A stretch of 48,090 bases of DNA, taken from the IMG/VR virus record IMGVR_UViG_3300017950_000014, positions 1 through 48,090 of that record; one strand, written 5' to 3'. Position 1 is the stretch's first letter. Each line of letters opens with the position of its first letter. The position numbers were made by a program, and so were the translations under genes. This DNA is from a virus. The notes under the pieces are model-generated. The model made no database searches, was not told the origin of the DNA, and saw only the letters and a program-made list of their open reading frames with translations. Below, in pieces: positions 17,492 through 43,240 of this stretch.

Positions 17492-20400
17492 ATGTCAATT
17501 AATACAACGCTTTATGATAATGCAGTTCAAAATGCAGCAGATATTCGTATTGCAGAAGAAGAATTATTTACTCAGCTAGATCGCTTAAACAGAGACCATC
17601 AAAGCCGACTATCTAAACTAATTGCTCGTAATAGTAATGAAAAAGATTTGTTATCCGAAGTTACTCGTTACAAAAGTATTTCCAAAACTACTATTGAAAA
17701 TGCTTTAAATGAAATTGGAATTAAAGAATTATCGTTTCAAAAAAATAGTATATCTAGTGCATCTAAAAGTTTTTATAAATTAAAAGATGTTTCAAGAGAA
17801 GGTTTTTTAAACTCTATTAAAAATAATCCAATTAGAGGAAATAAAAATTTAACTCAACAAATAGATGGTATTTTTAACAAACAAGAACAAAGAATTAAAT
17901 CTATTCTTTCTAAAAATATTTCTTCTAAATCTCAACTTAGTTCTGAAATTAAAAATGCAAGTAACTTAAGTAGAGCGCAAAGCCATACCTTATTTGCAAC
18001 TTCTAGTACTCAAAGTCAATCAGAAGCTTTTACTAGGACTATGGAAGCTAATAAGGATATTATAAAAGGATATCGATTTACTGCAGTGCTTGATTCAAGA
18101 ACTTCAGATATTTGTCAACATCACGATGGTGAAATATATCCTGTAGATGATCCTAAGTTTGTTCCTCCTTTACATTGGAATTGTCGTTCAGTATTAGTTC
18201 CAGTTTTAAAATCACACAGTGAGCTTATTGGTACTGATAGTAAACGTATTTTATATTCTGTTTTAGAAAAAATGAACGTAGTTTCTATTTCTAAACTAGA
18301 TGGTTTAAATCCTAAACTAGAAAGTTATGATGTTTGGTTACGTAGACAACCTACAGAAGTTCAATTAAAACATTTAGGTAATAACTTAGAAAGACTAGCT
18401 TTGTTTCAAAATGGTAACTTACATTTAAAAGATTTTCAATCTGCTAGAGGAACTAATGTTAGCGCAGAAGTACTTTCTAGAAAAGCACAAGAAGGTCTTT
18501 TTGATACTCCTATAAGAACTACTAAGTATCAACCTGCAGCTAACTATGATTTTAAAGTAGAGGCTTATAAAGTTGATGACTTAATCAAAAATAAAAAAGC
18601 TCAAAAACAATTAAGTGAACTTTTTGAAATTGATGAAAGACATAGTATTTCTCCTTTATCAACTACTGAATTTAGAGGAGTTACCTCAGAAACTAAAAGA
18701 CAAAATAGGTTTAGATCTAAAACTGTAGCAGATGAAGATTTGATTATGGATCCAGTTACAGGAATTGTAAGAAATCCATTAATATATAGGCCTAATAATA
18801 AACTTTTAGAAGAAAGATTAGAATTAGTAAGAAATTCTAAAATTTTAAATAAAGAACAAAAAAAGTTTATTGAAGATTTTGTGAATTCAATGGAAGATAG
18901 ATTAAGCACCAATAATCGTTCTGTAATTACAGAAAATTTACGTGTTACTTTTGAAAGACAGCTTAATGTTGATTCTCCTAGCTACAATAAGCCATGGGAA
19001 AACTTAACTGCAGTAATTAGAGCAGAGAATACTAATGCGGTTGCTAACGTATCTCGTAGATTAGAGCGTACTTATCGCAAAGATTTAAAGCACATGGTAG
19101 TTGCAAATGTTAGTCCTGATGCAGACGTAATGCCTTCTGTTAATATTTTTGGTACAATTCGTACTTTTGATGAAATTGAAGATAGTATTGCAAGCAATCA
19201 ACGTTTTGTAGATGACTGGATTGATCGCAAAGGTTTAAAAATGGCTACAAAAGCTTATTTTAGTGGTAAAGCTCCTTTGCGAAATTACTTTTTACCACCT
19301 TCACAAGTTAATCCTTTAGACTTTAAAAAACGTATTATAAAAGCTTATGATGAAGTTATTGATAGCTTAAATTTCCCAGCAAAAGCTAAAAAATATATTA
19401 AACAACAAATTGAGTTTTGGACACAAAATCCAATAACTGTTGCAGAAAATGCTTTAATTGACTTTGCTAGAGAATTAAATGTTCGTTGGTATCAATTAGT
19501 AGAATTAGAATTTCTTTATAGAGCGCTTAATATTAACATTAGAAAAGCAGTTGTAAATAATTCACCTGAAATTGTTAAAGTAAATACTAGAGCAATTGCA
19601 AAAGGTCTTAAAGCGTTAGCAGATGGTTCTACTTTAGACTATGATACTTTAGCTATTAACGTAGGTAAAGCACTGTATGATGAATCTCGTATTGATTTAC
19701 CTTGGCGTAAACCAACTCTTAAAGATTATCATAAAAATGGTTCTAGAATTTTAGCTGATTTAGAAAAACAAGGTCTTATTAAAATAGGTCAAGCTACTGT
19801 TACTCGTCAATCTGTTATTGATGTTAAAACAGGAAGACCAGATCCTTCAGGTTATAAAGAAGTACAACAAAGAGAAATTGAGATTCTAGATCCAGAACTT
19901 TCAAAATTACAACAAATTAATAGAGAGTTATATATTGGTCGTAGAATTGGTATTACTCAAAAGAAAAATAGGTTATATTTAGAACCACCAGTTGAAGGAA
20001 AAGGCGCTTCTAATATTAAATACAAAGATGCACAAGGAAAAGTAACTAGCGAAAAAGTTATTACTCGTTCAGCTTCTGCTAAATTAGGTACAGATGAAGA
20101 TGCAATTGGAAATCAATTAGATCGTGATTTTCAACAACAAACTAATTATGCAAATAGTCTTACTTGGGGTTTAGATAATCAATTTACAGATTTTTTCCAA
20201 GATGTTGTTTATTATACACCTAAAGATGCAAAACGTGTAACTTCTTCACCTAATTTATTTAGAGAAGTAGTTAAAAGGCGTGGAGAACAGGGTACTATGT
20301 TTATGCAATCTATGAAATGGCATAGACAAAAAGGTACTAATTGGTCTAATATTCATCAATTTGATGGTCGTGGTCGTTTTTATGAGCAAGGTTATTTAGC

Positions 20401-23164
20401 AGCTACTCGTGGAGAACTTGTACGTCCTTTTTTACATACTACCTTTGATCAATCTGGTAATAATGCAATTATTTTAGAATTAAAGAAACAGTTAGGTGCA
20501 ACAGTAGGAGATAAAAATTTAGGACTCTCTACTAATGGACGTTTTCAAAACTTTAATGATAATTTAGATGATTTCCTAGAAATAGGAGCTATTATTCAAG
20601 GAAAGTATAACCAAAAACAAAGGTCTATTAATGAATTTTTAGAAAATAAATTAATTGCACATGTTGATGATATTGGGGATGCTGCTGAAATTGGTAAAAT
20701 AGCTCGTTATTCTTTAGAAATAAAAAGAATTGAAGATCATCTTAATAAATCTAAACTAACCTTAAAAGCTAAGAAAGTAGAAAAAGGAATAGTATTTCAA
20801 ACTTGGGATGCAGATAACGCTAACCATAATTCTATTATGAAAAAATTTAAAACTAGATTGTTAGTAGAAAATGATGCATCAGCTTCTGGAGCACAACAAA
20901 TTGCTTTAGCTTCAGGAGATAAGTTATTAGCAGATGCTTCAAATGTTATTCCAACTCCACAAAAACAAAGGTTATACGATTTAGCTGCTCAAGCTACTGT
21001 AGCAAACCCTCAATTCCAAAAACGTTTTGGGCCAGAAGGTTTAAACTTAGGTATTGACTGGGAAGATTTGCAAAAAGGTGCTAAAGCTCAAAATATGGTA
21101 ACTTTTTATGGAGCTGGAGAAGTAACAAAAACTTTAAACATTGAATCAAAATTTGCTAAAGTGCTTACTAAAAATGAACAGAATATTGTTGTTTATTCAG
21201 ATAAAGCACCTGATGCACCAAATGCTTTTTCTCAAAAAGAATTATATAATGCAATTGAAGCTAATATTAATGATGCAGAAGCAAGAGGTTTAACTAATAC
21301 AGTAATTGGTTTAAAACAAGTTAAAGATGAACTAGACCAAGTTTTAAAAAAAGAAATTTCTATAGGAGATCATTTATTACGTTACTCTAGCGAAAAAGAT
21401 GATATAGTAGCAGATTTTGTTAGAAAAACTACTAATACTAGAGCTAATCTTATTACTCCTAAAGATTTTGAGTTTATTAATAGAGTAATGTCTGAAGAAT
21501 TAAGTAAAATTGCTCCTTCAACGGAAAGGTTTATTACTTTTTGGAAATCAGCGGCTAGATCTTATGTGAATGTTTCTGGAACTGTAGATATGCCTTGGGT
21601 TAACTATAGAGGTAAACAATTTACTCAATTTTATAGACCTATATCTGAGGAATCTATTACTTTCAAAGATCCTATTACGGGTAAATTAATTTCTAATAGA
21701 TATAGAAACTCTGTAGATAATGGACTACTACGTTCTTCTGGTTCAGCTGGAGATGCTCAAACGGGATTAGGTGTTAACGGAAATCATTCTAATGATGCTA
21801 GTTTAGTTCAAGGCTATTGGTTAAAAGCAAGATCAGAAAAGAAAAGAGTAGCAACTATTCATGATGGTTTTTTTGCACCTATTGAAGATGCTGATTGGAC
21901 AATTAATACTCTATATGAATTAATGGGTGATGCTGTAGAAAGTAATTCTATTAAAAATACCTTAAAAGCAATGAGAAATTCTGCAAAAGAAAACATTAAT
22001 AGAGAAACACGTAGAGAACAAGCTTCTATGCTAGACTCTTTATTACAAAAAGCAGATAAAGGTTTGTTAACTAAAAATGATATTTCTAACTCTTTTAAAA
22101 CTTTACCGGGTTTAAAAGAGTATATTAAAAAAGAAACAAAGTTAACAGATTATGAAATAAGTAAAAAATTAGGAAATGTTCAAAAACAATCTATTTTAAA
22201 CGATTTAATTTTTAATATTAACGATGAATTTTATTCTGTTAAAACTTTAAAAGATAGTTTAAATGAGATTATTCTTTTAGAACAGGGCTTAAATAAAAAG
22301 TTTAAATTAAGCACTAATCAAATTTTAAATGAATATGCTAAACATGGAACTAAAAAACGTTTACTTATAACTCAAAATAAATATAAAGAAGGTACTTTAA
22401 GTAATAGTTTATTTTTTAATCAATATTTTAAAGAACCAGCTTTAACACCTCAAGAAGCTGCAAAATATAGAGATGCCGTAAAGAAAGCAACTGCTCAAAA
22501 GAAAGCTATTCCTTCAGTTTCTGAAGCTTTAGGTAAAAAGCCTTCTCAAAAAGAAGTACTTCGTAAACAATATGGCATAAGTAATCTTAAAAATCTTGAA
22601 GATAAACTTGTAAGTGGTGACTTTAATTTTGAAACATTTTTTAAAACAGAATTAACCAAAACTGAAAATCCTTTAAATTTAAAAGATTTAAAAGAAATAA
22701 TTAAAGAAGTTAGTTTATCTCAAAATCCAGATATTAATATTAAAGATATAATTGCAGGAATAAAAAGTTATCGTGGTAATCTTAGAAGTGTTCAAAGAAA
22801 ACAATTAAGAGAAATAGATAACTGGTATGAAAGCATGCTAGCAGAAGCTACTCGTTTACAATTAATTGACAAAAATAAAACTAATAAAATAGTGTTAAAT
22901 AAAATTGATCAATGGCAAAATAGCTTAGTTAAAAGAAAATTTAATTATCAACAGTTACCTGCTTTTTATAGAGATTGGTCTGAAGATTTAGAAAAATATT
23001 TTGAAATTAAAAGTCTAGCAGAATTAAATATTAAATATCGTTCTGGTAATTTTAGTATAGAAGATTTTTTAAGAATTCAAGATAATAGGTATAGAGAATT
23101 AAAAAAATCAGATATTATTAAAAAACCATTAGAAAATCAAGATAGATATGGAATCGGGCCGTAA
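17492..23164 (+). CDS. MuF-domain / single-subunit RNA polymerase fusion, candidate virion RNAP
   Basis: The 1890-residue protein starts with a Mu-F/SPP1-gp7 head domain (about 1-240) ending in the signature DSRTSDIC (201-208) and PPLHWNCRS (225-233). After a spacer, T7-type RNA polymerase motifs appear in order: DGRGRFY at 958-964 (T7 DWRGRVY), motif A NDASASGAQQ with Asp1128 (T7 D537), motif B KAQNMVTFYG with Lys1198 and Tyr1206, the exact K-x8-G spacing of T7 K631...YG, motif C HSNDAS with Asp1435 (T7 D812) and IHDGFF at 1457 (T7 IHDSF). Both catalytic aspartates are present, so activity is expected. About 380 residues follow the core and are not recognised. Location between portal and scaffold and the MuF domain imply capsid packaging and ejection with DNA, as for N4 virion polymerase. 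The terminator at 23153-23175 overlaps its last codons. Confidence 0.93.
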   Translation: MSINTTLYDNAVQNAADIRIAEEELFTQLDRLNRDHQSRLSKLIARNSNEKDLLSEVTRYKSISKTTIENALNEIGIKELSFQKNSISSASKSFYKLKDVSREGFLNSIKNNPIRGNKNLTQQIDGIFNKQEQRIKSILSKNISSKSQLSSEIKNASNLSRAQSHTLFATSSTQSQSEAFTRTMEANKDIIKGYRFTAVLDSRTSDICQHHDGEIYPVDDPKFVPPLHWNCRSVLVPVLKSHSELIGTDSKRILYSVLEKMNVVSISKLDGLNPKLESYDVWLRRQPTEVQLKHLGNNLERLALFQNGNLHLKDFQSARGTNVSAEVLSRKAQEGLFDTPIRTTKYQPAANYDFKVEAYKVDDLIKNKKAQKQLSELFEIDERHSISPLSTTEFRGVTSETKRQNRFRSKTVADEDLIMDPVTGIVRNPLIYRPNNKLLEERLELVRNSKILNKEQKKFIEDFVNSMEDRLSTNNRSVITENLRVTFERQLNVDSPSYNKPWENLTAVIRAENTNAVANVSRRLERTYRKDLKHMVVANVSPDADVMPSVNIFGTIRTFDEIEDSIASNQRFVDDWIDRKGLKMATKAYFSGKAPLRNYFLPPSQVNPLDFKKRIIKAYDEVIDSLNFPAKAKKYIKQQIEFWTQNPITVAENALIDFARELNVRWYQLVELEFLYRALNINIRKAVVNNSPEIVKVNTRAIAKGLKALADGSTLDYDTLAINVGKALYDESRIDLPWRKPTLKDYHKNGSRILADLEKQGLIKIGQATVTRQSVIDVKTGRPDPSGYKEVQQREIEILDPELSKLQQINRELYIGRRIGITQKKNRLYLEPPVEGKGASNIKYKDAQGKVTSEKVITRSASAKLGTDEDAIGNQLDRDFQQQTNYANSLTWGLDNQFTDFFQDVVYYTPKDAKRVTSSPNLFREVVKRRGEQGTMFMQSMKWHRQKGTNWSNIHQFDGRGRFYEQGYLAATRGELVRPFLHTTFDQSGNNAIILELKKQLGATVGDKNLGLSTNGRFQNFNDNLDDFLEIGAIIQGKYNQKQRSINEFLENKLIAHVDDIGDAAEIGKIARYSLEIKRIEDHLNKSKLTLKAKKVEKGIVFQTWDADNANHNSIMKKFKTRLLVENDASASGAQQIALASGDKLLADASNVIPTPQKQRLYDLAAQATVANPQFQKRFGPEGLNLGIDWEDLQKGAKAQNMVTFYGAGEVTKTLNIESKFAKVLTKNEQNIVVYSDKAPDAPNAFSQKELYNAIEANINDAEARGLTNTVIGLKQVKDELDQVLKKEISIGDHLLRYSSEKDDIVADFVRKTTNTRANLITPKDFEFINRVMSEELSKIAPSTERFITFWKSAARSYVNVSGTVDMPWVNYRGKQFTQFYRPISEESITFKDPITGKLISNRYRNSVDNGLLRSSGSAGDAQTGLGVNGNHSNDASLVQGYWLKARSEKKRVATIHDGFFAPIEDADWTINTLYELMGDAVESNSIKNTLKAMRNSAKENINRETRREQASMLDSLLQKADKGLLTKNDISNSFKTLPGLKEYIKKETKLTDYEISKKLGNVQKQSILNDLIFNINDEFYSVKTLKDSLNEIILLEQGLNKKFKLSTNQILNEYAKHGTKKRLLITQNKYKEGTLSNSLFFNQYFKEPALTPQEAAKYRDAVKKATAQKKAIPSVSEALGKKPSQKEVLRKQYGISNLKNLEDKLVSGDFNFETFFKTELTKTENPLNLKDLKEIIKEVSLSQNPDINIKDIIAGIKSYRGNLRSVQRKQLREIDNWYESMLAEATRLQLIDKNKTNKIVLNKIDQWQNSLVKRKFNYQQLPAFYRDWSEDLEKYFEIKSLAELNIKYRSGNFSIEDFLRIQDNRYRELKKSDIIKKPLENQDRYGIGP

Positions 23165-35945: not shown

Positions 35946-38900
35946 ATGGGAACGCCTATTGAATGGATGATAGTCCAAGCAATAATAACAGCAGCTTCTA
36001 TGGTTTACCAAGCGCAACAACAAAGAAAACTTAAAAAAGCGCAAGAGAGACAAAGAGAAAAAGCAAGGGATAAAGCTGCAACTAGAACTATTCAGTTTTC
36101 TGGTTCTAGTGAAAGTATAGATTTTTGTTACGGATACACAGGACTTGATCCTACAGAAGTAAATGTAAATGTAAATAGTAGTTTTAGCACTCCAAGTAAT
36201 AGTAATTTAACTATCGGTAATTTAAATGATTTTACTGGAGATAAAAATGAATTATTAATAGTTCAAAGACCTATTTGTTTTGCACCAATAGAATCTGTTG
36301 TAACAATAGATGTTAATGGTGAACCTTTTACTGATGATAAATACAATAATTATTTTAGAAGTTATATTAATTTAAACGGAAATTCTTTCGATCCAACAGC
36401 AGTTGCTAATTCAACCACTATTGATTATACTGCTGTTTTTAATGATTTTGCTTATAGTTCTGAATTTTATAGACAAAATAGAGATGAACCTCAATATGGT
36501 GGTACTCCTTCTGTTTATTATTATATTAAAGGAAGAAAAATAAAAGCACCAATAGTAACTAATATTAGTGGTATTAACTATTATTCAATGAGTACTACTA
36601 GATCGTTTAATAGTAATGCAGTTGGAGTTCTTTTAGATTATTTGTTAGATGCTAATGGTGCTAATCTAGATACTGATAATCTTGATTTAGAATCTTTTTA
36701 TAATGCTTATCAAATAGCAGCACAAGTAGTGCAACCAGCAGCAAGCGTATCTGGTAAAATTTTTGATGGCACTACAACTAGATCCGTAGTTAAATATGAA
36801 TATAATGGATTAATTCCAAGTTCAGATGACCATATTACAAATATTGAAAGAATATTAGATGTTATAGCAGGCGCTATACTTTTAAGAGATGCTAGAGGTA
36901 AATTAAAACTTAATATACCAGATGAAAGTAAAACAGATTCAGAATTATCTGTTAAAACAATAACTGATAATGAGTTAATTGGTTATATTAAAATATCTCA
37001 AGCAGATAGTAATGATAAGTTAAATAATGTTACTATTTCATTTCCTAATGCATCTAAAGATTTTACTAAAGATAGTGTAACTTTTAATAATCCTGCTTTT
37101 TTAGCTGCAGATTTAAATATACCTTTAAAAGCTGAATTAGATGTTCCTGGAATTTCAAATAAATATCATGCAGAGTATTTGTCTAGAGTTATGGTTTCAG
37201 AGTCTAGATTAGAAAGTTATGAGTTTACAACATCTACGGAAGGTGTATTACTTGAACCGGGAGATATTATTAAATTTGAAGATAATGTACAAGGTTTAGA
37301 CACTTATGCAAGAATTAATACAATTAAAGTAAATACTGATTTAACAGTTACTATAACTGCTAGTGAATTTTTTGTAGAAATTTACACTTGGTCTGATCAA
37401 GATGATGAAGTTATTTTACAAGGGCCAACTTTTGATTTTACAGTGTCTCCTCCTACTAACTTTACAGCTTCTTTAGGTATTAATACAACTACTAGGTTGT
37501 TTGTATTTGATTTTGCTTGGACAGATACTCCAGATATTCTTGTTAATGAATACAGATTAGAAACAAAGTTTAATAATACTTTTTGGAAAGAAATAGGTGT
37601 TATTTCACAAGGTATAGGTTTATTTACTTATTATCCTTCTGCTACTGGTAATTATGAATTTAGAATAAGAGCTAAAACTTTAGATGGTAGATTTAGTAAT
37701 TATGCTGAATTTGCAACTCCTATAGCTATGACTAATCCACCACCTCCTAGAAATGTGCTTGTTGAAATACCAGCAGATTCTTCTATTAGGCGGGTAGCTA
37801 GAATTACTTGGGATGCCCCTGCAAATTACGAATCAACTTGGATTGCAGCATATAGTATTGAACAAAGATCTACTACTTATACAGATTGGCAACAAATAAC
37901 AGTTACCTCAAGTAGAAATATTACTTCTCTTAACTTTATACCTGATCATCCAGATACTTATTATTTTAGAGTAACTACTATTGATAGAAATGGCGCTGAA
38001 TCTGTTCCTTCAACAACAGTATCAAAAGATCTAAGTAGTGGTTTTGTAACAGACACGCATGTAAATTCAGCTAACAGTAATATTGTTTCTACTCAAGATT
38101 ATAGATTAACTCAATTAGATTTAGTAGATACCGGTCAAGGTACTATTACTAATGGTTATATCTCTGGTGGAAACACAGATGATGCTTTTGCTTTTGAATT
38201 TACAAATACGCCAATTGGTTCTTTTTTACCAGATGATGGCGAGTGGATGCTAAAAAGAGATGATCCTTCTGAAACTCAATCTTTTTGGGCAAATGTTCAA
38301 TATATGTGGGCAGAAGATAATCCAGCTACAAACGATAATACTAATACTAGATTTTATGATGATCGTGATAGGCCTGATACTGATACTTATGACATGTATG
38401 CTGATTCAGATGCAAATGATGGTAGAATTACTGTTACCCAATGGTCTGATTTTGTAGATAATTTATTAATTTTAAATACTACTAGTAATACAATTAGTTC
38501 ATTTTTAAATGAAATTACTAATCCAATTTTAATACGTAAAGATATAGATAATTATGCATTATTCTTCGGATCTAGCTCTATTATTAATAACGAATTAGTT
38601 TTAAGTTTAAATCAATTGATTGATTCAGAAGGTAGTATTTCAGATTCTGATAGTATTTCTATTAGTGATACAGATAGAGAATTTTATTTAATAAGTGAAC
38701 CACAATCAATTGCTATTGGTCCTTATACTTATCAAAAAGACACAGAAGCAACAGCAGGCGATTTACAAGACGGTGCTTGGGATCTTAGAAATGGAAGACT
38801 TGTTTCAGATTCTAGAACAAATTTTTTAACTTGGAACGATTGGGTTGGTAAATATTTAAGAATTGATGGTTTAACTTCTGCTGAAATGGATGCCGTTGGT

Positions 38901-39713
38901 TCTTTGCAAGGTCAAGTTATAGATTTAGTTTTTGATGCTAGCAATTCTTGTAGTGTGGTTATTGATTTAGTTCAGATAGAAGGAACCGATATTGCTTTGC
39001 ATATTGCTTCTATTACAAACCCTGTTGGAAGACCCTCTAATACAGCTTTAACTCTTAGTGATATTGCGGATCATCGCCCTTTATCTTATGATTTTAGTGC
39101 TTCAATTGATTCTAGTAGAGTAGGTAAACATATTTTCTTCAATGTTGATACTATTGGATCTACTTATAGTACTCAAAATAATAATATTAGTTTATTTAGA
39201 TATCAAAACCAAGGTGGTCAAGATACTAATTTCTGGTATGGTGATGACACAGAAAATGGATTTATTTGGAAATCTAAAACTGTAATTAGTTCTAATCCAG
39301 TTAGAACAAATAGTATTAGACCAATAAGACCAGGAGATGCCTCCTATTTTATGTGGGGCGATAGAGAAATTGTTGTTTTACCAATTGCAGAAACCTATAC
39401 ATTTTTAGAAACAGGTAATTATCAATTTAGATTAGTTGTTACTCCTACAAATAATGAACAAGCTGTTATTAAACCTATTCAAATGTTATTTTATGGTAGT
39501 AATATAATAGAAAACAGACTAGATACTGATGTATCTAATACTGGAAGGGTTATTAATTTTAATAAAACTTTTAGTAATATAGAATCTGTTCAAATTACTC
39601 CTGTTGATGCTACAGGTGCAACAAATGTATGGTATGATAGTTTAAGTTTAACTAGTGTAAGAGTTTTTGCTTCCCCTACTTCTGATTTAAACATTTCTAT
39701 AAACGGATATTAA
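35946..39713 (+). CDS. Tail hub/tip protein with two FN3 domains (lambda J-like)
   Basis: The 1255-residue protein starts with a hydrophobic helix and a Lys/Arg/Gln coiled segment, then a long hub region. Two fibronectin type III domains are seen at about 501-596 (PPTNFTASLG ... YEFRIRAKT) and 598-695 (PPRNVLVEIP ... YYFRVTTIDRNGAESVPS). The C-terminal 550 residues are Asp/Ser/Thr-rich, probably the exposed receptor-side part. This is the central tip that contacts the host envelope, as lambda J. The 39-kb end is followed closely by fibre genes. Confidence 0.85.
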   Translation: MGTPIEWMIVQAIITAASMVYQAQQQRKLKKAQERQREKARDKAATRTIQFSGSSESIDFCYGYTGLDPTEVNVNVNSSFSTPSNSNLTIGNLNDFTGDKNELLIVQRPICFAPIESVVTIDVNGEPFTDDKYNNYFRSYINLNGNSFDPTAVANSTTIDYTAVFNDFAYSSEFYRQNRDEPQYGGTPSVYYYIKGRKIKAPIVTNISGINYYSMSTTRSFNSNAVGVLLDYLLDANGANLDTDNLDLESFYNAYQIAAQVVQPAASVSGKIFDGTTTRSVVKYEYNGLIPSSDDHITNIERILDVIAGAILLRDARGKLKLNIPDESKTDSELSVKTITDNELIGYIKISQADSNDKLNNVTISFPNASKDFTKDSVTFNNPAFLAADLNIPLKAELDVPGISNKYHAEYLSRVMVSESRLESYEFTTSTEGVLLEPGDIIKFEDNVQGLDTYARINTIKVNTDLTVTITASEFFVEIYTWSDQDDEVILQGPTFDFTVSPPTNFTASLGINTTTRLFVFDFAWTDTPDILVNEYRLETKFNNTFWKEIGVISQGIGLFTYYPSATGNYEFRIRAKTLDGRFSNYAEFATPIAMTNPPPPRNVLVEIPADSSIRRVARITWDAPANYESTWIAAYSIEQRSTTYTDWQQITVTSSRNITSLNFIPDHPDTYYFRVTTIDRNGAESVPSTTVSKDLSSGFVTDTHVNSANSNIVSTQDYRLTQLDLVDTGQGTITNGYISGGNTDDAFAFEFTNTPIGSFLPDDGEWMLKRDDPSETQSFWANVQYMWAEDNPATNDNTNTRFYDDRDRPDTDTYDMYADSDANDGRITVTQWSDFVDNLLILNTTSNTISSFLNEITNPILIRKDIDNYALFFGSSSIINNELVLSLNQLIDSEGSISDSDSISISDTDREFYLISEPQSIAIGPYTYQKDTEATAGDLQDGAWDLRNGRLVSDSRTNFLTWNDWVGKYLRIDGLTSAEMDAVGSLQGQVIDLVFDASNSCSVVIDLVQIEGTDIALHIASITNPVGRPSNTALTLSDIADHRPLSYDFSASIDSSRVGKHIFFNVDTIGSTYSTQNNNISLFRYQNQGGQDTNFWYGDDTENGFIWKSKTVISSNPVRTNSIRPIRPGDASYFMWGDREIVVLPIAETYTFLETGNYQFRLVVTPTNNEQAVIKPIQMLFYGSNIIENRLDTDVSNTGRVINFNKTFSNIESVQITPVDATGATNVWYDSLSLTSVRVFASPTSDLNISINGY

Positions 39714-39727
39714 AGAGAGATAACAAA

Positions 39728-40267
39728 ATGCCAATAAATAATACGGATAGTAGTACTATCCAACAAAACTTAACAAATGTAAATACAACAGAAGCTTTAG
39801 CTAGAAGTGCTTTAGATAGTATTATCTTAGAAGTTGATGCTATTCAAAGTAAATTTTTCCAAACAGGAACTACTGCTACTTCTGATTTAAATAATGATAT
39901 CATTGAAAAAAATGCGATAGATACAACAAATGCAGGAACTGCTGGTCAAGTTTTAGCTGTTGATACAAATAATACAGCAAATATGACTTGGGTTTCTGTT
40001 AGTTTAGATGATCTATCAGGAACTGTTTCAACAAATCAAATTGAAAATGATGCAGTTACTCTTGGTACTAAAACTACAGGTAATTATGTTCAAACAATTG
40101 CTAATGCTAGCAATGGAGTAATGGAAGTTACAGGAAGTGGTTCAGAAAGTGCAGATGTAACTGTTAATTTATCTTATCAGCTATCAGCAGACAGCGCTGT
40201 AACTTACTCAGCAAATGTACCAACTTCTGGTTCTTTTAATGGTAAAAAATTTTTATTTGTTTATTAA
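39728..40267 (+). CDS. Fibre-like tail protein, 179 residues
   Basis: The protein is Asn/Thr/Ser-rich and of low complexity, with a helical front (NTTEALARSALDSIILEVDAIQSKFF) and beta end containing GTAGQVLAVDTNNTANMTWV, a segment common in phage fibres (G.AGQVL..D..N...W). AGAGAGA lies upstream. It probably trimerises as a short fibre or linker to the adhesin that follows. Confidence 0.7.
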   Translation: MPINNTDSSTIQQNLTNVNTTEALARSALDSIILEVDAIQSKFFQTGTTATSDLNNDIIEKNAIDTTNAGTAGQVLAVDTNNTANMTWVSVSLDDLSGTVSTNQIENDAVTLGTKTTGNYVQTIANASNGVMEVTGSGSESADVTVNLSYQLSADSAVTYSANVPTSGSFNGKKFLFVY

Positions 40268-40279
40268 GGAATAGCTATT

Positions 40280-41137
40280 ATGCCAATATGGATAAATGAT
40301 AATAATGCAGGAATCCAAGAACTTAAAAAAATAGCTGTATATAATAGTGGTACTCCTTTATTAGTAAAACAAGTATGGACAGATGAAACTGCTCCTAAAT
40401 TAATTCATGCCGTTATAGATTTAGATTATTTAATAGTAGGTGCTGGTGGTTCTGGTGGTACTGCACGAGGAGACAATCACGGTGGTGGTGGTTCTGGAGG
40501 CGGTGGCGGTGGCTACAGTTACGGAAATATTACTGACTATGCTGTTTCCTCTAGTTCTTCTTTTTCTATTTCTATTGGACAAGGAGGTTCTTCAAAATCT
40601 GGAGACTGTGGACATGGAGGTCAATCAGGTGACTCTGGTGGAGCTACCACTGTAACAGGAGGTATTTCCATAACCTCAACAGGTGGTGGTGGTGGTAAAT
40701 CTTACTGCGCAGGTGGAGGAACTACCGCCGGAGGTACTGGAACTAATGCTAGTGGTGGTACAACTACAGGTGCTAGCGGTGGTGCTGGTCGAGATGATCA
40801 AACAGGTTCTACGGGTGGTAATGGTCATACTTGGTCTGTAAATAATGTTACTTATGCTGGTGGTGGAGCTGGCGGCGGCGAACCCGGCGGTTCTGGCGGT
40901 GACTATGGCGGAGGTGACCCAGCAAGTGGTTATCATGCTTTCTTTTATGGTGCTGGCGGTGGCGGCGGTAGTAATATTGGAGGCAATAATGTTAGTATAA
41001 CTGGTTCTGGTTACAATGGAGTAGTTATATTTTCTTATGTTTCTAATATTCAATTATTAACTGGTGGAACTGTTACAGAGTCTAATGGTAGATATTATCA
41101 TACTTTTACAGCTGATGGAACTTTAACTAAGATTTAA
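40280..41137 (+). CDS. Gly-rich tail adhesin
   Basis: The 285-residue protein has a short N-terminal attachment part (1-50), then about 190 residues dominated by glycine runs (GGGGSGGGGGGYSYG, GGGGKSYCAGGGT, GAGGGGGS) separated by variable loops, and a C-terminal beta segment (VVIFSYVSN ... YHTFTADGTLTKI). This polyglycine-plus-loops build is that of receptor-binding adhesins such as T4-like gp38 of Salmonella phage S16. Its role is probably host recognition. The Gly tract is a likely place of loop variation between related phages. Confidence 0.8.
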   Translation: MPIWINDNNAGIQELKKIAVYNSGTPLLVKQVWTDETAPKLIHAVIDLDYLIVGAGGSGGTARGDNHGGGGSGGGGGGYSYGNITDYAVSSSSSFSISIGQGGSSKSGDCGHGGQSGDSGGATTVTGGISITSTGGGGGKSYCAGGGTTAGGTGTNASGGTTTGASGGAGRDDQTGSTGGNGHTWSVNNVTYAGGGAGGGEPGGSGGDYGGGDPASGYHAFFYGAGGGGGSNIGGNNVSITGSGYNGVVIFSYVSNIQLLTGGTVTESNGRYYHTFTADGTLTKI

Positions 41138-41141
41138 TTAA

Positions 41142-41747
41142 ATGTTAATTACAGATGAATATATAGAAGATAACAATATTTTAAATGATTACGATAAAGA
41201 AAATATTAAAAATCATATTATAAATAATCAAAATTTAAATTGGTTTTATCAAGCTAATTCTTCTTCAACAAAATATCCTTTTGTTGGTCATTGTTTAGCT
41301 AATAGAAATTTAAATAACGAAACTGAAATTTATTCTGATTATTATATATATTTTTGGGAAATCTTTAAAAAATTTATTAATAAACATAAATTAATAAAAA
41401 ATCCAGTAGTTATGAGAGGCGCTCTTAATTGGTCACTTCCTCAATCTGATCTCCATTGTGATCCTCATGTAGATCATTCTGGAAATTTTTGGAATTTTAT
41501 TTTGTATCTTACAAAAAGTTCAGGAGATACTATTCTTTATGATGAGGTATGGACAAAAGGAAAACCAACAGTTTTTTTAAATGAAAAATATAAAACTCCA
41601 AAAGAATTAAAAAGGTTTTCTCCTGAACCTTTTAAAATGATAGGGTTTAAAGGCAATAGATATCATTCCTTTCAATTTCCTAAACCCTCTGAGAGAAGAC
41701 TTATTGCAGTATTTACTGTAAAAGAAGAAAATGAAATAGTTTATTAA
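41142..41747 (+). CDS. 2-oxoglutarate/Fe(II)-dependent oxygenase
   Basis: The 201-residue protein has the facial triad His109-x-Asp111 (PHVDHSGNFW) and His175 (GNRYHSFQFP), with Arg185/Arg186 placed to bind 2-oxoglutarate. The strand FILYLTKSSGDTILYDE between them is typical of the phage and marine type. It should hydroxylate or otherwise oxidise a protein, nucleobase or small molecule using Fe(II), O2 and 2OG. It lies between the adhesin and the halogenase, 8 nt before the latter, so the two are likely to act together. The substrate is unknown. Confidence 0.88.
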   Translation: MLITDEYIEDNNILNDYDKENIKNHIINNQNLNWFYQANSSSTKYPFVGHCLANRNLNNETEIYSDYYIYFWEIFKKFINKHKLIKNPVVMRGALNWSLPQSDLHCDPHVDHSGNFWNFILYLTKSSGDTILYDEVWTKGKPTVFLNEKYKTPKELKRFSPEPFKMIGFKGNRYHSFQFPKPSERRLIAVFTVKEENEIVY

Positions 41748-41755
41748 GGATTATT

Positions 41756-43240
41756 ATGAAGAAAATTATCATTGTTGGCGGTGGATCTGCAGGTTGGATG
41801 ACAGCCTCTACACTTATAAAACAATTTCCTATGTGGGATATTACTTTAATCGAATCTCCAAATATCCCAACTGTAGGGGTAGGCGAAAGTACACTTGGTT
41901 CTATAAATCAATGGCTACAATTTTTAGGTATTAAAGATAAAGACTTTATGCCAGCATGTGATGCTACCTATAAAACTAGTATTAAATTTACAGATTTCTA
42001 TAAAAAAGGAGAGCATTTTCATTACCCTTTTGGTCAACCTGATTTACAAGGAACTAGAAATGGTTTAAATGATTGGTGGTTAAAAAAGTTTTTTTATGAA
42101 AATTCACCTTACAGTGATTACGCAGAAACTTATTATCCTTTAGGTTATTTAGCAGAAAATAACAAAATTTTAAAATCTAATGAATTAATGAATTTTAATT
42201 TTGAAAACGATGTAGCTTATCAATTTGATGCTACTAAGTTTGGAATTTGGTTAAGAGATAATTATGCTTTGCCTCGTGGTGTTAAACATATTAAAGAAGA
42301 AATTACAGATATTCAAGTTAATCAAGAGGGTATAATTTCAGTTAATAATTATACAGCAGATTTATATTTTGATTGTACTGGTTTTAAATCATTACTTATG
42401 GAAAAATTAGAAGTTCCTTTTAACTCTTATGAGGAAATGCTTGTTAACAATTCTGCTTGGGCTACTCATTTACCTTATACAAATATTAAAGAAGAGCTTA
42501 CATCTTATACTAATTGCACAGCTATTGAAAATGGTTGGGTTTGGAATATTCCTTTAACTAGTAGAATGGGAACAGGCTATGTATATTCTGATAAATTTGT
42601 TGATGATGAAACTGCACTTAACGAATTTAAAAAATATCTTGGAAGAGATGATTTAAATTTTAAAAAAATTAAATTTACTCCAGGTATTAGAGATCGAATT
42701 TGGGAAAAAAATGTAATTTCTATTGGATTATCAGCTGGATTTATTGAACCGCTTGAAAGTAATGGTTTAATGACGGTTCATGAATTTTTATTATATTTTA
42801 TGAGAAATACACAAAGAGAAACTATTACACAATGGGATAAAGATAATTTTAATTCAATGTGTAAATCTTTTTTTGATAATTTTGCTCAATTTGTAGCTTT
42901 TCATTTTGCTATTACTTCTCGAACAGATACTTCTTATTGGAAATATTGTACTAATAAAAAATGGAATATTGCTGAAAATGCAAAAATGCAAAGAACAGAA
43001 AATTATTATTTTTCAGAAAATTCAGGTTATCATTGCATAGCAGCAGGAGGCCATTGGGGTCCAACTGAAGCTTGTACTTTAAATTATTTTAATTCTAAAA
43101 AAGACAATGAGTTATTAGAAGATTGGAAACCATTTTTTAATAATTTAGAAAAAAGAATTGATTCTTGGAAAACTATTGCTAAAAATTTAGATTCTCCTTA
43201 TGATTTTTTAAACAAAGAAATTTATAATGGTAAGATTTAA
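41756..43240 (+). CDS. Flavin-dependent halogenase (tryptophan-halogenase family)
   Basis: The 494-residue protein has the FAD-binding GGGSAGW (8-14), the family pattern around GVGESTLGS (41-49), the active-site Lys73 (ATYK, equivalent to Lys79 of PrnA/RebH), the WxWxIP motif WVWNIP (261-266) that excludes monooxygenase activity, and FIEPLESNG (329-337). All key residues are present, so it should form HOCl/HOBr-type reagent at FAD and transfer it via Lys73. FADH2 must come from a host reductase. Phage members such as cyanophage VirX1 accept iodide and bromide on aromatics in vitro; natural substrates are unknown. AAGGATT precedes the ATG. Function with the adjacent oxygenase is inferred. Confidence 0.95.
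   Translation: MKKIIIVGGGSAGWMTASTLIKQFPMWDITLIESPNIPTVGVGESTLGSINQWLQFLGIKDKDFMPACDATYKTSIKFTDFYKKGEHFHYPFGQPDLQGTRNGLNDWWLKKFFYENSPYSDYAETYYPLGYLAENNKILKSNELMNFNFENDVAYQFDATKFGIWLRDNYALPRGVKHIKEEITDIQVNQEGIISVNNYTADLYFDCTGFKSLLMEKLEVPFNSYEEMLVNNSAWATHLPYTNIKEELTSYTNCTAIENGWVWNIPLTSRMGTGYVYSDKFVDDETALNEFKKYLGRDDLNFKKIKFTPGIRDRIWEKNVISIGLSAGFIEPLESNGLMTVHEFLLYFMRNTQRETITQWDKDNFNSMCKSFFDNFAQFVAFHFAITSRTDTSYWKYCTNKKWNIAENAKMQRTENYYFSENSGYHCIAAGGHWGPTEACTLNYFNSKKDNELLEDWKPFFNNLEKRIDSWKTIAKNLDSPYDFLNKEIYNGKI

Follow-up and report, generated by a model that had tools for sequence, protein, structure and literature searches.

A glycine-rich tail adhesin, a predicted 2OG-Fe(II) oxygenase and a VirX1-like halogenase in an ocean phage: a short form of a widespread cassette with a probable role in adhesin modification

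The window, by which we mean the whole 48,090-base stretch of DNA that was analysed, is the record of a tailed ocean phage in which genes for a large terminase, a portal, a major head protein and tail proteins were detected. Five consecutive features of its tail region concern us here:

35946-39713, + strand: large tail protein (context), upstream of the adhesin; Pfam Phage-tail_3, 2.6e-7
39728-40267, + strand: 179-aa tail-region protein (context), an ORF immediately 5' of the adhesin
40280-41137, + strand: glycine-rich tail adhesin, 285 aa, the proposed substrate; PF21722, PHROG 2295
41142-41747, + strand: predicted 2OG/Fe(II) oxygenase, 201 aa, subfamily og3; PHROG 274, T4-GC 100, motif, model
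41756-43240, + strand: predicted flavin-dependent halogenase, 494 aa, VirX1-like; PF04820, PHROG 2928, VirX1 match, motifs

The ORFs confirmed the original prediction that the two enzymes are 8 nt apart and lie directly 3' of a glycine-rich adhesin gene, and only 4 nt separate the adhesin stop codon from the oxygenase. Tail-type genes flank the adhesin-oxygenase-halogenase set on both sides, which is not the setting of a cluster of host-metabolism auxiliary genes, expected as that would be amid genes for photosynthesis, carbon or nucleotide metabolism. The 179-aa protein gave neither a Pfam nor a PHROG match. The predicted identities of the adhesin, oxygenase and halogenase, judged from homology and intact motifs, are far beyond chance.

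The halogenase matched Pfam PF04820 (E=9e-106) and PHROG 2928 (E=3.5e-150), and its closest solved structure was VirX1 of cyanophage Syn10 (PDB 6qgm; E=1.9e-111). Its motifs, GxGxxG in the form GGGSAG (residues 8-13), the YK lysine (K73), GWVWNIP (260-266) and FIEPLES (329-335), are nearly or fully invariant in an eight-sequence alignment that includes VirX1's gene, and the protein is predicted to be a VirX1-type flavin-dependent halogenase of the PF04820 family. The likeness to VirX1 includes the common Pfam family, every motif, and the genomic setting, as VirX1's gene lies in a similar cassette, 3' of glycine-rich adhesins and 5' of an oxygenase array. The two differ in sequence (~42% identity), in gene order and number, with a single oxygenase preceding the halogenase in the window, and in genome, 48 kb here as opposed to a large T4-like genome. 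Enzymes of this type are defined by the in vitro incorporation of halide (I>Br>Cl) into aromatic substrates, and VirX1 is a valued biocatalyst for which we know of no identified natural substrate.

The oxygenase had no Pfam match at 1e-3, and its sole family match was PHROG 274 (E=1e-19), which carries the label "DNA endonuclease V". The protein nonetheless encodes the HxD...H...R signature as H109, D111, H175 and R186, kept across 61 aligned sequences, and the top Foldseek matches of its AlphaFold model (pLDDT 91.9, pTM 0.90) were 2OG-oxygenase structures (6n1f, E=1.3e-6), with PHD2 and the viral collagen prolyl hydroxylase (vCPH) ranking lower. With a double-stranded beta-helix fold, an iron triad and a 2OG-binding arginine in the model, we assign it as a predicted 2OG-Fe(II) oxygenase; both enzymes thus retain the catalytic residues that the original prediction had described as intact. 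An identity as DNA endonuclease V (DenV) was rejected because in fold and in conserved residues the protein is a 2OG oxygenase, and the same label appears to be wrong for many cyanophage genes of PHROG 274/T4-GC 100. A gene of this family is found immediately 5' of the gp38 adhesin in S-BM1 and S-RIM2. PHD2/EGLN and vCPH share the fold and the HxD..H..R residues with the window oxygenase, but identity is 10-14% and the window adhesin is proline-poor. We also set aside a prolyl hydroxylase class for subfamily og3, for which no proline association was present among the top results listed in the analysis described below, and the window adhesin core has two prolines.

The proposed substrate is 28% glycine and 5% tyrosine and matches the Pfam family Gly_rich_2 (PF21722, E=1.4e-12), the domain of glycine-rich (polyglycine II) phage adhesins, and PHROG 2295 is common to it and to the adhesins of related cassettes. 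Its glycine-rich core contains four histidines, two cysteines and two prolines. A tblastn search of 50,697 phage records and a sequence search of the PDB both came back without a match to it. We know of no dedicated modifying enzymes described for glycine-rich receptor-binding proteins of the types of Pam3 gp24 and the T-even-type gp38 (S16 gp38), with which it has the Gly_rich_2 domain in common. The predicted structure of a Syn9-type relative's adhesin resembles the fibre fold of cyanophage Pam3 (7ypx, E=6e-8), in which the glycine-rich tip domain has been proposed to recognise the receptor (PMC9608196). In the published virion proteome of S-SZBM1, proteins 51 and 52 of the corresponding region were identified and adhesins 48-50 were not (PMC9146016); scarcity, a shortage of usable peptides, modification or true absence from the virion could each account for this.

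To place this arrangement in context we surveyed about 335 related viral loci. Sets A to D were fetched from IMG/VR, with the window halogenase (set A, 80 loci), VirX1's gene of Syn10 (set B, 80) or two tail-fibre proteins encoded upstream of the adhesin (sets C and D, 79 each) as queries, so that sets C and D are blind to the enzymes; set P comprised 18 annotated phage loci, and genes were called mechanically. IMG/VR scans with the window oxygenase alone and with the window tail protein returned zero relatives. The 2OG oxygenases were recognised by 41 HMMs built from oxygenases near the halogenases of sets A and P, which means that families absent there can be missed. Of ten representatives drawn from the larger oxygenase families, eight matched a 2OG Pfam family, the exceptions being og1, which has the HxD..H motif, and og5, which was left out of strict counts as most members lack the iron triad. 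By sequence og5 looks like a 2OG-oxygenase fold without iron ligands; it often lies directly 5' of an og0 oxygenase (L067 5185-5700, L028 3651-4208 and others) and is perhaps its non-catalytic partner. These are metagenome contigs with recombining modules and rough adhesin alignments, and the relationships reported below are correlations.

The survey showed that the window holds a reduced copy of an apparently undescribed cassette that is widespread in marine phages, with the order tail fibre, glycine-rich adhesin, small protein, tightly packed 2OG oxygenases and an optional halogenase. The defining elements in the window are the glycine-rich gene and the close, co-directional oxygenase and halogenase; having one og3 oxygenase behind the adhesin and no gene for the small protein, it represents a short version. 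In many pelagic cassettes that small protein, here called "m" (PHROG 7759; L003 970-1455), has 150-170 aa, lies between adhesin and enzymes, and could be an adhesin chaperone or a part of the tip. The original prediction had asked whether the enzyme pair is kept together in other phages, and it is: a 2OG oxygenase adjoins the halogenase in 70 of 80 set A loci, and in 32 of 36 when one locus per 90%-identical halogenase was retained (a looser count that still includes og5), downstream of glycine-rich adhesins. Within five places of set A halogenases 253 of 539 genes are oxygenases, as opposed to 5 of 54 at a distance of ten or more. The usual order in set B is glycine-rich genes, one small gene, one or more halogenases, two further genes, and then as many as 11 consecutive oxygenases.

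The enzyme-blind sets tied the oxygenases to the adhesin and not just to the halogenase. No oxygenase occurred among the genes within eight places upstream of the first glycine-rich gene (0/301 in set C, 0/245 in set D, 0/546 pooled), and downstream of it oxygenases made up 241/420 and 219/391 genes (460/811 pooled). From one oxygenase or halogenase gene to the next the median gap is -4 nt, and 98% of gaps are at or below 20 nt (n=611), as in a tightly packed operon. A halogenase was present in only 12 of 65 set C and 7 of 61 set D oxygenase cassettes, and because most arrays do without one, the two enzymes are better regarded as parts of a larger set than as the dedicated pair acting on one target that had been envisaged. 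By sequence inspection, the genes between oxygenases in pelagic cassettes are mostly transferases, kinases and small unknowns, and none of psbA, hli or talC turned up among them. Downstream of some cassettes lie genes for a P-loop kinase, a nucleotidyltransferase and, judged from its sequence motif alone, a sulfotransferase-like protein (L003 4314-5090; L008 7623-9116), hinting at sulfation as a putative further modification. The sole halogenase match in bacterial genomes, on a contig (L374) in a Maricaulis MAG from GTDB, is itself a phage fragment with an adhesin end, an "m" protein, oxygenases, a halogenase and further oxygenases. We found neither the cassette nor its link to adhesin residues in the literature searched, which was mostly open-access; the components belong to known families, and what is apparently new is the type of gene cluster, with a function that we infer.

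We compared enzyme-family presence with residue counts in the glycine-rich cores of 96 dereplicated adhesins from sets C and D, a total of 220 tests. Eight of the 220 passed Bonferroni correction for the adhesin core, and none of 220 did when the same tests were applied to the upstream tail fibre. The strongest association joined og4 to cysteine (3.63 vs 0.72 per core; PGLS p 1e-15 on the tail-fibre tree and 8e-14 on the adhesin tree), followed by those of og0 with proline (1e-7 and 0.006), the halogenase with histidine (2.52 vs 1.16 per core; 5e-6 and 4e-4), and og5 with proline (6e-5 and 4e-4). The main associations recur in sets C and D separately. A link between og1 and proline, at first one of the leading associations, was dropped because it was not significant on the adhesin tree or with the other enzymes as covariates. 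The "m" protein varies with og5, over many residues. The window adhesin, with two core prolines and no proline-linked enzyme, is consistent with this pattern; the proline-rich motif PPxxPPQG found in relatives' adhesins occurs in neither the window nor cyanophages, and we therefore make no claim of prolyl hydroxylation for the window. For og3, the subfamily of the window oxygenase, the association is weak, with glutamine only (p about 0.01-0.03), which counts against the adhesin as its substrate.

The original prediction had favoured tyrosine or tryptophan as the halogenated residue, and this was not borne out: halogenase presence was unrelated to core counts of Tyr, Trp or Phe (p 0.17-0.84 in the main models), apart from Phe in one model after core length was added (p 0.005). 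This also bears on the idea that the oxygenase and then the halogenase act in sequence on the same Tyr or Trp residues of virion proteins, which the adjacency and probable co-transcription of the two genes in the window would favour, as would the acceptance of phenols and heteroaromatics by VirX1 (PMC8407142); given the missing relation to aromatic residues other than histidine, and oxygenases that usually occur without a halogenase, we regard it as very improbable.

Histidine, by comparison, is related to the halogenase in the pelagic sets. In a test fixed before set D was fetched, loop histidines were more numerous in those set D adhesins that are accompanied by a halogenase (2.1 vs 0.89, one-sided p=0.002), and the histidine content of other genes in the same loci did not differ by halogenase presence (p=0.13). 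At least four core histidines were found in 5 of 21 halogenase-bearing and 2 of 75 halogenase-free adhesins; the window adhesin has four. Cyanophages provide counter-evidence, since the adhesins of halogenase-free P-RSM1, S-BM1 and S-RIM2 contain 9-11 histidines and that of S-RIM12 contains five, so that histidine content is not diagnostic there and a histidine target is a lead. For the same reason we demoted the histidine-richness of adhesins in the VirX1 clade (median 12 in set B, a redundant set), which had looked like strong support. Histidine is our leading candidate for the halogenated residue, a choice that we make only tentatively.

Cultured phages showed that adhesins and enzymes move together. 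In one isolate of cyanophage S-RIM44 (KX349291) the stretch from the large structural gene to the neck gene gp13 is occupied by three glycine-rich genes together with two halogenases and an oxygenase array; another (KX349292) has four other genes at this site, of which one matches oxygenases weakly, and the neck-side flanks of the two are 98.8% identical over 1,942 bases. The whole cassette has been swapped between these isolates. Furthermore, all 20 phage records that carry a homolog of the Syn10-type adhesin also hold a halogenase of the VirX1 clade.

Taken together, the linkage to adhesins, the swapping of whole cassettes and the enzyme-residue associations lend support to a virion protein as target, one of the options in the original prediction, and it seems reasonably probable that the two enzymes serve to tailor the neighbouring glycine-rich adhesin, acting before virion assembly. 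The sequences themselves show what the genes are, that their motifs are intact and the genes closely packed, that the cassette is conserved and can be swapped, and that enzymes and residues are associated; we infer the adhesin as substrate, as well as the timing, halide, residue and benefit. Late in infection the adhesin and enzymes would be made together from the tail operon; in the infected cell the 2OG oxygenase would hydroxylate or otherwise oxidise adhesin side chains, and the halogenase would add a halogen to one of its aromatic residues, with histidine the likeliest. The modified sites would lie in exposed loops of the glycine-rich receptor-binding tip, which would become part of the virion afterwards. 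Receptor binding or stability would be adjusted in this way, and adhesin and enzymes would be exchanged between phages as one module. A more speculative extension, which we consider possible though doubtful, is an exchangeable modification code in which each oxygenase subfamily or halogenase targets one type of residue (Cys, Pro, His and so on) and VirX1-type enzymes are protein histidine halogenases.

Phage-encoded glycosyltransferases are known to glycosylate virion and tail proteins, and the logic would be the same here, with an exposed virion protein decorated by enzymes of the phage itself, although the chemistry would be hydroxylation and halogenation rather than sugar transfer and enzymes of the window type occur as adhesin-linked arrays. 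Precedents for halogenation of proteins rich in histidine and glycine come from animals: a marine structural protein of this composition from the nereid worm jaw is described as halogenated (PMC13120676), and 5-bromohistidine is described in sponge skeleton, which indicates that halogenated histidine occurs naturally (PMC8659048).

The enzymes might instead modify a host surface receptor (a glycan, LPS or surface protein), for example to block superinfection or aid progeny release, and sit beside the adhesin because adhesin and enzymes have one receptor to match. This would account for the adjacency, for the exchange of modules and for an enzyme content that varies. Genes resembling sulfotransferases, methyltransferases and carbamoyltransferases among or beside the arrays are in keeping with such a role, which does not predict, however, that enzyme families should track the residues of the adhesin and not those of the tail fibre, and we think it unlikely.

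Several observations count against the adhesin as substrate. The set in the window is one unreplicated instance, and adhesins 48-50 are missing from the S-SZBM1 virion proteome. The halogenase of S-B64/S-H35, at 48% identity, is ~86 kb away from the glycine-rich adhesin, and in HTVC008M a phyH-halogenase pair sits between terminase genes. Members of a distant halogenase clade (28-33% identity; L094, L095, L096, L099) are surrounded by metabolic genes, psbA, talC and hli included, suggesting that phage halogenases may have two roles.

That clade is in agreement with a metabolic explanation, by which the site behind the adhesin is just an insertion hotspot and the enzymes, as auxiliary metabolic genes, work on metabolites of the host. 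Published proposals of this kind include 2OG and nitrogen control (PMC3037559), DNA repair near uvs genes (PMC9146016), and antibiotic protection by prnA (PMC2984593), which would involve antibiotic-like halogenated products. Such a hotspot would predict neither the enzyme-residue associations nor up to 11 divergent oxygenases in succession behind the adhesins of one phage, and the genes between pelagic oxygenases are mostly of the other kinds named above, all of which makes this explanation improbable. A host metabolite, the other target offered by the original prediction, is accordingly a possible one that would leave the associations unexplained.

Modification of the adhesin would tie VirX1-type halogenases and marine-phage 2OG oxygenases, the latter abundant and so far explained as metabolic helpers, to a host-binding protein, and gives both a concrete, testable candidate substrate. 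If it is true, phages use hydroxylation and halogenation to customise their adhesins chemically, adding a new layer to host-range evolution, and the cassettes are a source of protein-modifying enzymes.

Also encoded in the window, at 17492-23164, is a 1890-aa protein with an N-terminus that matches MuF/head-morphogenesis families (PHROG 241, 2.7e-43) and with residues 1116-1260 that match phage RNA polymerases (PHROG 414, 1.3e-12; N4-like 2166); it may combine a head protein and a virion RNA polymerase in a single chain.
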